Shown: piece after piece, positions 17,745 to 37,027 of the stretch
Position numbering within the stretch: the stretch's first letter is position 1
Layout: each line of letters starts with the position of its first letter
Assembly: GCF_002102175.1 (NCBI RefSeq)
Contig: NZ_LQOX01000003.1
Span: 1-64,000, forward strand
Source: Mycobacterium gastri
GTDB taxonomy: Bacteria; Actinomycetota; Actinomycetes; Mycobacteriales; Mycobacteriaceae
Reading direction: 5' to 3'
Length of the DNA: 64,000 nt
Position numbers and translations under genes: made by a program
Notes under the pieces: generated by a model
What the model saw: only the letters and a program-made list of their open reading frames with translations
Told to the model about the DNA's origin: nothing
Databases searched by the model: none

Positions 17745-18343
17745 TTACAGGGTTGCGGTGACGGCAACGATGTCGCCGAGCTGCGACATGTCGCCGTCGG
17801 GTAGGACGCGACCGTAATCGGTGAACAACTCCCGGCGTGGCCGGGTGCCCACCTGCCAGCCCCGGCCGGTCAGATACTCCACGACGTTGCTGCGCTCGCC
17901 GTCGTAGAACAGTCCCGACAGGTCGATATCGCAACCCAATGTGGCCCACCGCTGGTTGAACTCCTGGGCACGTTGCGCCATCGTCGATCCGGTGTCGGGA
18001 TGGTATTCGGTGGCCAGCCTGCTTCCGGGCGCGCTCAGTTCGGTGATGTTGTCGAACAGGCGGTCCTGGGCGTCGGGCGGCAGGTACATCAGCAAGCCCT
18101 CCGCGCTCCAGGCTGTCGGTTTCGTGTCGTCGAATCCATTGTGGCGCAAGGCATTCGGCCAGTCGTCGCGTAGGTCGACGCTGACCGTTCGCGCACCAGC
18201 GGTGCGGCGAACGGGTCGTCGATGATCGGGTCGGCCGCTGTGGACGCCAGCGCGCGGGCGGCGGCGACCATCGTCGCCGTGGCCCCGACACTGGATGCCA
18301 AATCCCAGCTGTCGCCGGGGGATCGGGATGAGTCGACTGCCAT
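17745..18343 (-). pseudogene. broken PPM-family SAM methyltransferase (internal deletion and frameshift)
   Basis: The first 50 codons from ATG 18343 encode a normal family N-terminus ([20 protein letters not shown] to [10 protein letters not shown]). The reading frame then shifts, and a second frame continues from the equivalent of [17 protein letters not shown] to a normal C-terminus ending at 17745. Against the intact gene at 10159-11088, about 100 residues are missing at the junction near 18190, including the SAM-binding [13 protein letters not shown] block, so the protein cannot be functional. Its start codon lies only 11 bp after the stop of the M29-like gene on the same strand, so it was probably the last gene of that operon. 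Confidence 0.87.
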
Positions 18344-19456: not shown

Positions 19457-19491
19457 CTCCCCGCGCCCCTTTTCCGAGCGGGCGCGGGGAG
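19457..19491 (-). promoter_or_regulatory. 12-bp perfect hairpin between peptide gene and M29-like gene
   Basis: CTCCCCGCGCCC at 19457-19468 and GGGCGCGGGGAG at 19480-19491 pair perfectly around an 11-nt loop. On the minus-strand transcript the 3' arm ends in GGGGAG, which is also the only ribosome-binding site for GTG 19452. There is no U tract, so it is not a classic terminator. It may act as an attenuator, protect the 3' end of the peptide mRNA, or block the upstream start. Such an element would give more peptide than enzyme. Confidence 0.6.
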
Positions 19492-19506: not shown

Positions 19507-19671
19507 TCAGACGACGGCGTTGGGGCAGAGCCAGGCGTCGTCGGCGATCCGGGTTGGGTCGGTGCGGGCGATGGCGATTTTCTCGTTGACGTCGCGCAGG
19601 GTCTTCAAGTCAGCCGCGGATAATTCGGTGGAGCTCAGTTCTGCACTGGTGGCGATAATGACGTTGGACAT
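19507..19671 (-). CDS. candidate RiPP precursor peptide, 54 aa
   Basis: A short gene not matching any family I recognise. ATG 19671 has AAGGGG eight bases upstream. The 54-aa product opens MSNVIIATSAELSSTE, continues with an amphipathic, charged segment (ADLKTLRDVNEKIAIARTD) suited to a leader helix, and ends DDAWLCPNAVV with the only Trp and the only Cys four to eight residues from the terminus. Small size, leader-like charge pattern and a compact Trp/Cys/Pro tail beside a peptidase-fold enzyme and a P450 are typical of ribosomally made, modified peptides. The codon-third-position GC looks coding. Function and product are inferred. Confidence 0.6.
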   Translation of the reverse strand: MSNVIIATSAELSSTELSAADLKTLRDVNEKIAIARTDPTRIADDAWLCPNAVV

Positions 19672-19775
19672 TGACGAAACCCCTTCTGTGACCGGCGCAT
19701 GGTAGACGTTAGCACTCGTGCTGGCCGCGTGCGAACTGTAGCTTGCAAGCCATTGAGCATTTACGGTACGAGGCG
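19672..19775. promoter_or_regulatory. divergent control region of peptide gene and P450
   Basis: About 104 bp separate the divergent starts of the peptide gene (minus) and the P450 (plus), so both promoters should lie here. It contains two inverted repeats: AGCAC-TC-GTGCT at 19711-19722 and the perfect palindrome GCTTGCAAGC at 19741-19750, which are possible operator sites. No convincing -10/-35 pair can be assigned. Confidence 0.4.
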
Positions 19776-21083
19776 ATGGTGCGCATTCACGCCGATGCTT
19801 ACGACTCGGTCGACTTTTTCAGCGACGAGTCGCTGTTGCCGAACCCATATCCCTACTTCGACCACCTCAGGGCGAAAAGCCCCGTTTTGCGGCTGCCGCC
19901 CCACCAGGTGATGGCAATTACCGGCTATCCCGAGGGCAATGCCGTTTACCGGGACTCCGGCAATTTCTCCTCGCTCGTCGCCGTTGGCGGACCGTTTCCG
20001 CCGCTGCCGTTCGAACCGCGGGGCGACGACATCGGCGAGCAAATCGAACGGCACCGCCATCGGATGCCGATGAGCAACTACCTGACCACGATGGACCCGC
20101 CCCAACACTCCCGGGCGCGGGCGCTGCTGGGTCGTCTGCTCACCCCCGAGCGCCGCGCATGCGCTACGGAGTCGATGCGGCGCCTGGCCGGTGATCTCAT
20201 CGACCAATTCATCGCCACCGGCCACTGCGAGTTCGTGTCCGAATATGCAAAGCCCTTCTCGTACAGGGTGATTGCAGACCTGCTCGGTGTGCCCGGCCAC
20301 GACCGCCGGCTATTCGACGTGCCGCGGCCGCCGGTGCCGGTCGGTGCGCTGGACCATGCGCCGCTACCGGAGGATCCGCTGCGCTGGCTGGACGACATAT
20401 TCGTCCGCTATCTGGTGGAGCGGCGACGCGAACCCCGCGCGGATGTGCTGACGCAACTGGCCACCGCGCGCTATCCCGACGGGACGACACCCGAGGTCGC
20501 CGACCTCGCCAGGAGCGCCACCCTGCTCTTCACCGCCGGACGGGGGGCCACCGCGTTCATGCTGAGCTGGTCGGTTCGGCTGCTAGCCGAGCGTCCCGAT
20601 CTGGCGGAGCAACTGCGTGCCAACCGCAGCCGGATTCCGCAGTTCGTCGAGGAGGTCCTGCGCATGGAAAGCCCGGTAAAGAGCGACTTCCGGCTGGCCC
20701 GCAAGACCACCCGGGTGGGTGATGTCGTGATCCCGGCCGGCACCACCGTGATGCTCTGTCCCGGGGCAAGCAACCGTGATCCCCGAAAGTTCGTCAGGCC
20801 CAATGAGTTTCGCCTGGACCGAAGCAACGCCCGCGACCATATGGCGTTCGGTCGCGGCGCGCATTCGTGTCCCGGAGCGGCGCTGGCCCGCGTCGAGGCC
20901 CGCATTTCGATCGAATGCATCCTGGACCGGTTAACCGCAATCCGGCTCAGCACCGCCGAGCATGGTGCGCCTGATAACCGGCGATTCAGCTATGAGCCGG
21001 CGTACACCCTGCGCGCGCTGACCGGCTTGCACCTCGAGTTCGCGCCGGCTTTGCCTCAGCCACTGAATTCGGCCGAGATGTAG
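19776..21083 (+). CDS. cytochrome P450, putative peptide-modifying oxidase
   Basis: A 435-aa class I bacterial P450. The haem loop [15 protein letters not shown] carries the axial Cys, the ExxR of helix K is in EEVLRMESP, and the I-helix motif is [14 protein letters not shown], where AT replaces the usual TT/ET pair. It requires ferredoxin and reductase, which are not encoded nearby. P450s adjacent to small precursor peptides can cross-link aromatic side chains; here that role is inferred from the adjacent 54-aa peptide. ATG 19776 is the likely start; TTG 19743 or GTG 19779 are alternatives, all with weak ribosome-binding sites. Its 3' end overlaps the convergent methyltransferase by 28 bp. 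Confidence 0.87.
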
Positions 21084-35854: not shown

Positions 35855-37027
35855 CTAAACGGTGGCGCGAAACCGCGCGGCCTCGGCCCGGCCGATGACC
35901 ACCCGCATGATTTCGTTGGTCCCTTCCAGAATTCGATGCACCCGCAAGTCGCGGACGATCTTCTCCAGACCATACTCGCGCAGGTAGCCGTACCCGCCGT
36001 GCAATTGCAACGCCTGGTCGGCGACCTCGAAGCAGGTGTCGGTGACATAGCGCTTGGCCATCGCGCACAGCTCGACCTTGTCGGCGGAATTGTCGTCGAG
36101 CGCACTCGCGGCCCGCCACAACAGCATTCGTGACGTTTCCAGTCCGGTGGCCATGTCGGCCAGGGTGAACCGGACGGTGGGTTCGTCGAGCAGGCTGGCG
36201 CCGAACGCGTGTCGCTCGCGAACATAGGCGCCCGCTTTGTCGAAGGCGGCCTGCGCGCCGCCGAGCGAGCATGCCGCGATGTTGAGCCGGCCGCCGTTGA
36301 GGCCGTTCATCGCGATGCCGAAGCCGGCGCCCTCGCCGTCGGAGCCACCCAGCATGGCATCGGCGGGCACCCGGACCCCGTCGAGGATCACCTGCGCTGT
36401 TGGTTGCGCATGCCAGCCCATCTTCTGTTCGGGCGCGCCGAAACTGAGTCCGGCAGTGCCCTTTTCGATGACGAAGGCCGATATGCCGCGCGGGCCGTCC
36501 GAACCGGTGCGGGCCATCACCACGTAGACGTCAGAGGCGCCCGCCCCGGAAATGAACTGCTTGACGCCGTCGAGCACATAGTCTGCGTTTTTTCCGGGAC
36601 CGTGCTTGACAGCTCGGGTGCTCAGGGCACTGGCGTCCGATCCGGCGTCCGGCTCGGTCAGGCAGTAGCTGGCGATGACGTCCATTGTGGCCAGCCGCGG
36701 TACCCAGATCTTGCGTTGTTCGGCGGTGCCGAAGCTGTCGATCATCCACGCGCACATGTTGTGGATGGACAAGAATGCTGCGGTGACCGGGTCGGCGATC
36801 GCCAACTGCTCGAAGATGCGTACCCCGTCCAGCCGGCGCAGCCCGCTGCCGCCCACGTCGTCGCGGCAGTAGATGGCGGCCATCCCGAGTTCGGCGGCCT
36901 CACGCAGCACGTCAACCGGAAAGTGGTGGCTGGCATCCCATTCCAGAGCGTGTGGGGCGAGCCGCTTTTCGGCGAAGGCGGCCGCCGTCTCGGTGATCAC
37001 CCGCTCGTCGTCGTTGAGGGTAAACAT
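35855..37027 (-). CDS. fadE9: acyl-CoA dehydrogenase (isobutyryl-CoA dehydrogenase-like)
   Basis: A 390-aa FAD-dependent acyl-CoA dehydrogenase, homologue of Rv0752c. It has AYCLTEPDAGSDASALS (acyl-CoA signature), the QLHGGYGYLREYGLEK block near residue 353, and RILEGTNEIMRVVIGR at the C-terminus; the catalytic Glu is the one in EGTNE. In context it oxidises isobutyryl-CoA or a related branched acyl-CoA in valine catabolism. It lies between mmsA (7 bp) and mmsB (14 bp), so all three form one operon. Confidence 0.94.
   Translation of the reverse strand: MFTLNDDERVITETAAAFAEKRLAPHALEWDASHHFPVDVLREAAELGMAAIYCRDDVGGSGLRRLDGVRIFEQLAIADPVTAAFLSIHNMCAWMIDSFGTAEQRKIWVPRLATMDVIASYCLTEPDAGSDASALSTRAVKHGPGKNADYVLDGVKQFISGAGASDVYVVMARTGSDGPRGISAFVIEKGTAGLSFGAPEQKMGWHAQPTAQVILDGVRVPADAMLGGSDGEGAGFGIAMNGLNGGRLNIAACSLGGAQAAFDKAGAYVRERHAFGASLLDEPTVRFTLADMATGLETSRMLLWRAASALDDNSADKVELCAMAKRYVTDTCFEVADQALQLHGGYGYLREYGLEKIVRDLRVHRILEGTNEIMRVVIGRAEAARFRATV

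Follow-up and report, generated by a model that had tools for sequence, protein, structure and literature searches.

We found that a 54-codon open reading frame of Mycobacterium gastri is, judging from its sequence and that of its relatives, almost certainly a real gene, and that it likely encodes a RiPP precursor acting together with an M29-fold protein and a cytochrome P450 encoded beside it. The peptide is probably the raw material for a chemically modified natural product that has yet to be described. The window denotes the whole 64,000-nucleotide stretch that was analysed (contig NZ_LQOX01000003.1, positions 1 to 64,000), and its relevant features are collected in Table 1.

Conservation and layout of the small peptide gene

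The first-pass annotation had reported an uncalled small gene with a well-spaced ribosome-binding site, and both the frame and the site were recovered exactly (Table 1). By itself a frame of this length says little, because the G+C-rich window holds many of similar size (107 ORFs of at least 40 aa within 12 kb in the window ORF listing). It is conservation in other Mycobacterium species that makes the gene real. The peptide was found in six of 297 Mycobacterium genomes, its own included, and the carriers include M. simulans, M. angelicum, M. szulgai and M. simiae. The orthologues in the five other Mycobacterium species (E 1.8e-11 to 2.3e-14; 51-58% identity) contain no stops or frameshifts (5/5), and an AAAGGG or AAAGGA ribosome-binding site lies at about the same distance from the peptide ATG as the purine-rich GAAGGGG of the window. 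Third codon positions hold most of the differences among the orthologues, and the sole internal indel is one whole codon. Pairwise dN/dS, the check that had been proposed for this gene, came to 0.11-0.51 (Nei-Gojobori, NG86, in frame), pointing to purifying selection. The abundance of frames of similar size could suggest a chance open frame without function, an explanation that is refuted by conservation and that we regard as virtually impossible: the orthologue matches of E 1e-11 to 1e-14, the intact frames, the codon-preserving indel and a dN/dS well under 1 all stand against it.

Sixteen positions of the peptide are invariant, and the sole invariant run among them is D-D-A-W-L-C near the C-terminus (6/6 orthologues), whereas the N-terminal stretch is degenerate. 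The alignment therefore has the conserved core and more variable leader of a RiPP precursor, and the conserved small gene, translated as far as selection indicates, lies beside modifying enzymes as such a precursor would. The leader/core layout that had been read from the single sequence is thus supported by purifying selection, the degenerate N-terminus and the invariant motif, from which we infer processing. Trp47 and Cys49, at i,i+2 spacing in W47-L48-C49, are the sole Trp and Cys of the window peptide and are directly followed by Pro50-Asn51. The annotation had described this packing correctly for M. gastri, but among the orthologues the Pro/Asn after the Cys was found in the window species only. 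Across the six species, the codons for DDAWLC hardly differ even at synonymous sites, although dS in the remainder of the gene is 0.24-1.39.

No usable family was obtained for the peptide in Pfam, NCBIfam or PDB sequence searches, and Rfam gave no match in the window. Weak peptide matches in about 80 other Mycobacterium genomes (E 0.02-1) were taken as chance, being partial and inside long frames, as was a second match in the own genome at 36078-36209.

Table 1. Features of the peptide locus in the window
Feature	Position	Strand	Remarks
Putative precursor peptide gene MSNVIIATSAELSSTELSAADLKTLRDVNEKIAIARTDPTRIADDAWLCPNAVV	19507..19671	-	ATG start, TGA stop, 54 aa
Putative leader, about aa 1-43 of the 54-aa peptide			Basis: orthologue alignment
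DDAWLC codons, aa 44-49, putative core	19525..19542	-	Invariant 6/6
Ribosome-binding site GAAGGGG	19680..19686	-	8 nt 5' of peptide ATG
M29/NicX/CgnB-fold protein, 354 aa	18355..19419	-	Alignments, AlphaFold model, fold matches
Cytochrome P450, CYP150-like	19743..21083	+	Start TTG 19743 or ATG 19776
Peptide-P450 divergent intergenic region	19672..19775	.	Without the element of the other five cassettes
G+C hairpin between peptide stop and M29-fold gene	19457..19491	-	MFE -40.9, z -2.15

Distribution, movement and decay of the three-gene cassette

The peptide gene forms a cassette with an M29-fold gene directly downstream on the same strand and a divergent P450 gene upstream. The peptide, the M29-fold gene and a P450 of one clade were found together in the same six genomes and in no other of about 290 sampled. 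The M29-fold gene is intact in five of the six peptide carriers, the copy of genome G064 being broken by an insertion at its 3' end, and its only further match beyond the six was a broken remnant in genome G221. In M. szulgai and M. angelicum the peptide frame runs directly up to the start of the M29-fold gene (TGA-ATG), and the gap is about 15-25 nt in M. simiae and G064. Five cassettes adjoin secY. The M. simiae trio lies at a different genomic site among other neighbours (no secY match in 19.5 kb), and since it is away from secY, only these three genes move as a unit.

Decay was observed in two close relatives of the window species. G221 has lost the peptide, the P450 and the greater part of the M29-fold gene, and a deletion in G091 removed the peptide, the first 185 P450 residues and most of the M29-fold gene. 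The first-pass annotation had held that frameshifts or stops in close relatives retaining the P450 would speak against the small gene. No sampled genome has an intact cassette-clade P450 without an intact peptide gene; in these two relatives, where the peptide is missing, the P450 too is lost or truncated. Its choice of the P450 as the relevant neighbour was sound in that this enzyme belongs to a co-occurring divergent clade, but the M29-fold gene is of equal weight. The cassette includes neither a transporter nor a protease dedicated to leader removal.

In all five other cassettes, GTAATCATNNGCTTGATTTATT followed by a palindrome like TTGCACATGTGCAA lies between the peptide and P450 genes (L031:9487-9523, L032:5928-5949, L033:9937-9973, L034:5584-5605 and L035:9329-9350), and this 22-bp motif with its adjacent palindrome is present also in the displaced M. 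simiae cassette. The element is absent from the corresponding region of the window (19672-19775). Given the missing element and the decay in the two nearest relatives, the window copy may be regulated differently or be on its way out, though all three frames are intact. The scan did not classify the strong G+C hairpin downstream of the peptide as a terminator, and no such hairpin was seen in the orthologues.

Further observations were made around these loci. As candidate cassette members, TIGR00027 methyltransferases were rejected: none lies beside the cassette in L033 and L035 (tblastn), and the copy on the secY side stays with secY. The methyltransferase gene beside the cassette in the window (17745-18343, reverse strand) appears frame-broken, and L032 and L034 have full-length counterparts of it. 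In G064 (L033:6751-8707), an insert of about 1.7 kb interrupts the M29-fold gene after residue 342 and holds a long ORF resembling a transposase (L033:6962-8599). Only in M. simulans (L031:9836-10406) does a GNAT-like acetyltransferase sequence, identified by eye and apparently frame-broken, lie between the peptide and M29-fold genes.

The P450, the M29-fold protein and distant loci

The closest solved structure to the cassette P450 is, far ahead of any other, CYP150A6 of M. marinum (6dcd; E 4.7e-165). CYP150-like genes are present in 236 of 287 Mycobacterium genomes at E 1e-90, and the cassette P450, at 57-63% to the ordinary CYP150-like P450s of the genus, groups with them by similarity. The cassette P450s form one clade with support of 100/100 in a tree without the long branch of the remote locus L052; with L052 included, support for the clade is only 72%. 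The heme-Cys motif is intact. In the I-helix, the window P450 reads AGRGATA instead of AGQETTA, and all six cassette P450s read TA[AG]RG[AV]TA, with the acid-alcohol pair E-T changed to G-A/V and the canonical monooxygenase pair thus absent. CYP150A6 keeps AGQETTA, in contrast to the A[AG]RG[AV]TA of the cassette enzymes, and the other CYP150-like loci compared have AGQETT in 23 of 24 cases and AGQHTT in the remaining one, from genome G168. Without the acid-alcohol pair, judging from what is generally known of P450s, ordinary hydroxylation becomes less likely and one-electron oxidation of a side chain would fit. We know of no CYP150 enzyme that acts on peptides. Among the CYP150-like P450s that do not belong to the cassette clade, the G168 enzyme (L091:8586-9842), in which the acid is replaced by His, comes closest (63%); it has no peptide or M29-fold gene nearby.

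The M29-fold protein of the window had no Pfam or NCBIfam match, and the PDB sequence search gave no usable family. Among 11 members, Pfam M29 matches weakly in seven (best E 6.7e-5) and not in the window protein, and HMMER profiles of the M29-fold alignments did not retrieve the CgnB/CgnE structures 6zsv/6zsu, the relation being too remote. An AlphaFold model from 11 diverse sequences (pLDDT 75), for which an earlier model from six close sequences (pLDDT 40) was discarded, matches one PDB fold group only, comprising NicX, the M29 aminopeptidases, CgnB and CgnE. NicX, a 2,5-dihydroxypyridine dioxygenase, is the best structural match (Z 21.7; Foldseek E 9.7e-17), followed by the M29 aminopeptidases PepS/AmpS/AmpT (Z 17-19), CgnB (15.0) and CgnE (14.7); unrelated PDB entries reach Z 7.8 or below. 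The predicted model thus has the M29-derived fold of the CgnB/CgnE family, with NicX and the aminopeptidases scoring higher. The overall fold is common to NicX, the M29 aminopeptidases and the cassette protein, which differs from them in its identity of about 17% in structural alignments and in adjoining a peptide gene and an oxidase.

Six dinuclear-metal ligand positions (E189, E261, E282, H288, H308 and D310 in the 354-aa numbering) are invariant in the alignment. They correspond, by motif and spacing rather than superposition, to the metal ligands E161, E252, E274, H280, H291 and D293 of CgnB (PMC10070186), and the E-x5-H and H-x-D spacing is the same in both proteins. Plasmid relatives of the M29-fold protein (tblastn) were set aside, as only catabolic-looking Burkholderia sequences without the peptide were found.

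M29-fold homologues in other actinomycete families (L050, L051, L052, L097 and L098) are each preceded by a small same-strand ORF with a ribosome-binding site. The Ala-Trp tails of these ORFs are VAWKISYSTYRA, AAWEITYSTHHN, VAWYLDTP, IAWYLNTR and SAWETEE. A candidate precursor gene near the M29-fold gene, as in the CgnB/CgnE family, was therefore found at all 11 loci. A small ORF whose last 20 aa contain AW lies upstream at 11/11 M29-fold loci compared to 31 of 538 control regions of the same DNA. This control is rough, as some loci are related to one another (L052 is close to L097, and the six mycobacterial loci are orthologous), and as the region allowed upstream was extended by 400 bp in M. 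simulans on account of an intervening gene. The Cys is conserved in the mycobacterial peptides only, the distant ones sharing only AW. A P450 is also present in the L052 and L097 neighbourhoods, L052 carries a peptide beta-hydroxylase of the aKG-HExxH kind (TIGR04267), an enzyme type known from RiPP pathways, and a PhyH-type oxygenase is present in L050. The theme across loci is a constant peptide and M29-fold protein with a variable oxidase. The tail AW[KE]I[ST]YST[YH] is common to the small ORFs L050:10158-10283 (-) and L051:8561-8755 (+), which come from different families, and suggests a separate subgroup of these peptides.

Known pathways, the proposed reading and its alternatives

The crocagin pathway comprises the precursor CgnA, the peptide-binding proteins CgnB and CgnE and the oxygenase CgnC; CgnB and CgnE are M29-derived, are without aminopeptidase activity, bind the precursor and bring it to the oxygenase (PMC10070186). 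As in crocagin, a small precursor here adjoins an oxygenase and an M29-derived protein whose dinuclear site is intact, the core Trp lies near the C-terminus, and the metal site is kept as in single-copy CgnB homologues. Unlike crocagin, a P450 takes the place of the Fe/2-oxoglutarate oxygenase CgnC, there is one M29-fold copy, and the precursor has 53-56 aa with DDAWLC compared to 21 aa with a C-terminal IYW. Instead of a C-terminal Tyr-Trp core, the peptides have A-W-L-C in mycobacteria and A-W with other residues elsewhere.

Biarylitide P450s use an aromatic-x-partner spacing as in W-L-C. Similar to these enzymes and to the aminopyruvatide P450 ApyO, the cassette P450 adjoins a short precursor with such a spacing, in which Leu is often central (YLY, WLY; here WLC). 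ApyO crosslinks Y-L-Y and, in a variant, a W-L-Y tripeptide (PMC13192836), so the W-L-C layout matches its substrate with a different partner, Cys in place of the aromatic residue or His of the aromatic-x-aromatic/His tripeptide that marks the biarylitide and aminopyruvatide class. The CYP150-derived cassette P450 matches ApyO only generically, and unlike in aminopyruvatide, the cassette holds no beta-amino-keto acid enzymes. The group combines a crocagin-like partner fold with biarylitide/aminopyruvatide P450 logic and falls under the sequence definition of neither. It was not found described in the open papers searched on P450-modified RiPPs, crocagin, CYP150 and mycobacterial RiPPs; supplements, such as the RiPPER list of PMC10070186, may contain these loci.

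In the reading that we prefer, the P450, together with an M29-fold partner that is possibly CgnB-like, would modify a precursor made up of a leader and an AW/WLC core. By analogy with CgnB/CgnE in crocagin, the M29-fold protein would recognise and present the peptide, the P450 would oxidise the core Trp and perhaps couple it to the Cys two residues on in W-L-C, and the leader would then be removed with release of a short modified peptide. A Trp-Cys bond within W-L-C is plausible but on balance doubtful, since the Cys is not kept outside mycobacteria. To our knowledge, formation of a Trp-Cys bond by a bacterial P450 would be unprecedented. Somewhat more tentatively still, these loci could represent a new RiPP class of slow-growing mycobacteria and other actinomycetes, with an M29-fold peptide partner, an Ala-Trp core and a tryptathionine-like Trp-Cys crosslink made by a CYP150-derived enzyme without the acid-alcohol pair. 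The broken M29-fold gene of G064, the window without the intergenic element, the restriction of the Cys to mycobacteria, the cassette without transporter or leader protease, and the descent of the P450 from CYP150, a family common in mycobacteria and not known for peptide substrates, are points against the RiPP reading.

CgnB does not stand out in the structural ranking, so the M29-fold protein could act as an adaptor, a peptidase or an oxygenase; gene context favors the adaptor, and the closer fit of the model to NicX and the aminopeptidases than to CgnB means that the role could be enzymatic. A working metallo-aminopeptidase that trims the leader, with the P450 alone recognising the core, has a real but minor chance. 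All six M29/CgnB metal-ligand positions are invariant, PepS, AmpS and AmpT match the model at Z 17-19, the cassette offers no other protease, and P450s such as ApyO need no partner to act on short C-terminal peptides (PMC13192836). However, the Pfam M29 match is weak and missing for the window protein, and the metal site is retained in single-copy CgnB homologues too, CgnB/CgnE being without aminopeptidase activity (PMC10070186).

It is unlikely that the M29-fold protein is instead a NicX-like non-heme iron dioxygenase oxidising the core Trp, the P450 serving as second oxidase, even with NicX as the best structural match, lengths that agree at about 350 aa and Trp as the one core residue common to all loci. 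The metal site of NicX is a mononuclear His-His-Asp. The conserved residues here are the dinuclear M29/CgnB set with three Glu, and the ranking comes from a predicted model of middling accuracy (rmsd 5.3 A). Less probable again is a role of the peptide as a small subunit that stays unmodified and regulates or assists its neighbours, for example as a cofactor or anti-toxin. The small size and charged helical middle of the peptide would suit that role, and modification is a prediction. Conservation is nevertheless concentrated in DDAWLC at the C-terminus, with drift in the remainder of the sequence, and the Ala-Trp tail recurs in otherwise unrelated peptides before distant M29-fold genes, at one locus adjoining a peptide beta-hydroxylase.

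If the reading as a RiPP precursor is true, mycobacteria including the opportunistic M. szulgai and M. simiae would carry a modified-peptide pathway that ORF-size cut-offs can hide. The cassette would then provide a three-gene system in which crocagin-type M29-fold proteins could be tested as general substrate presenters for different oxygenases, and a way to ask why a P450 drops its oxygen-activating residues when turning to peptide chemistry.
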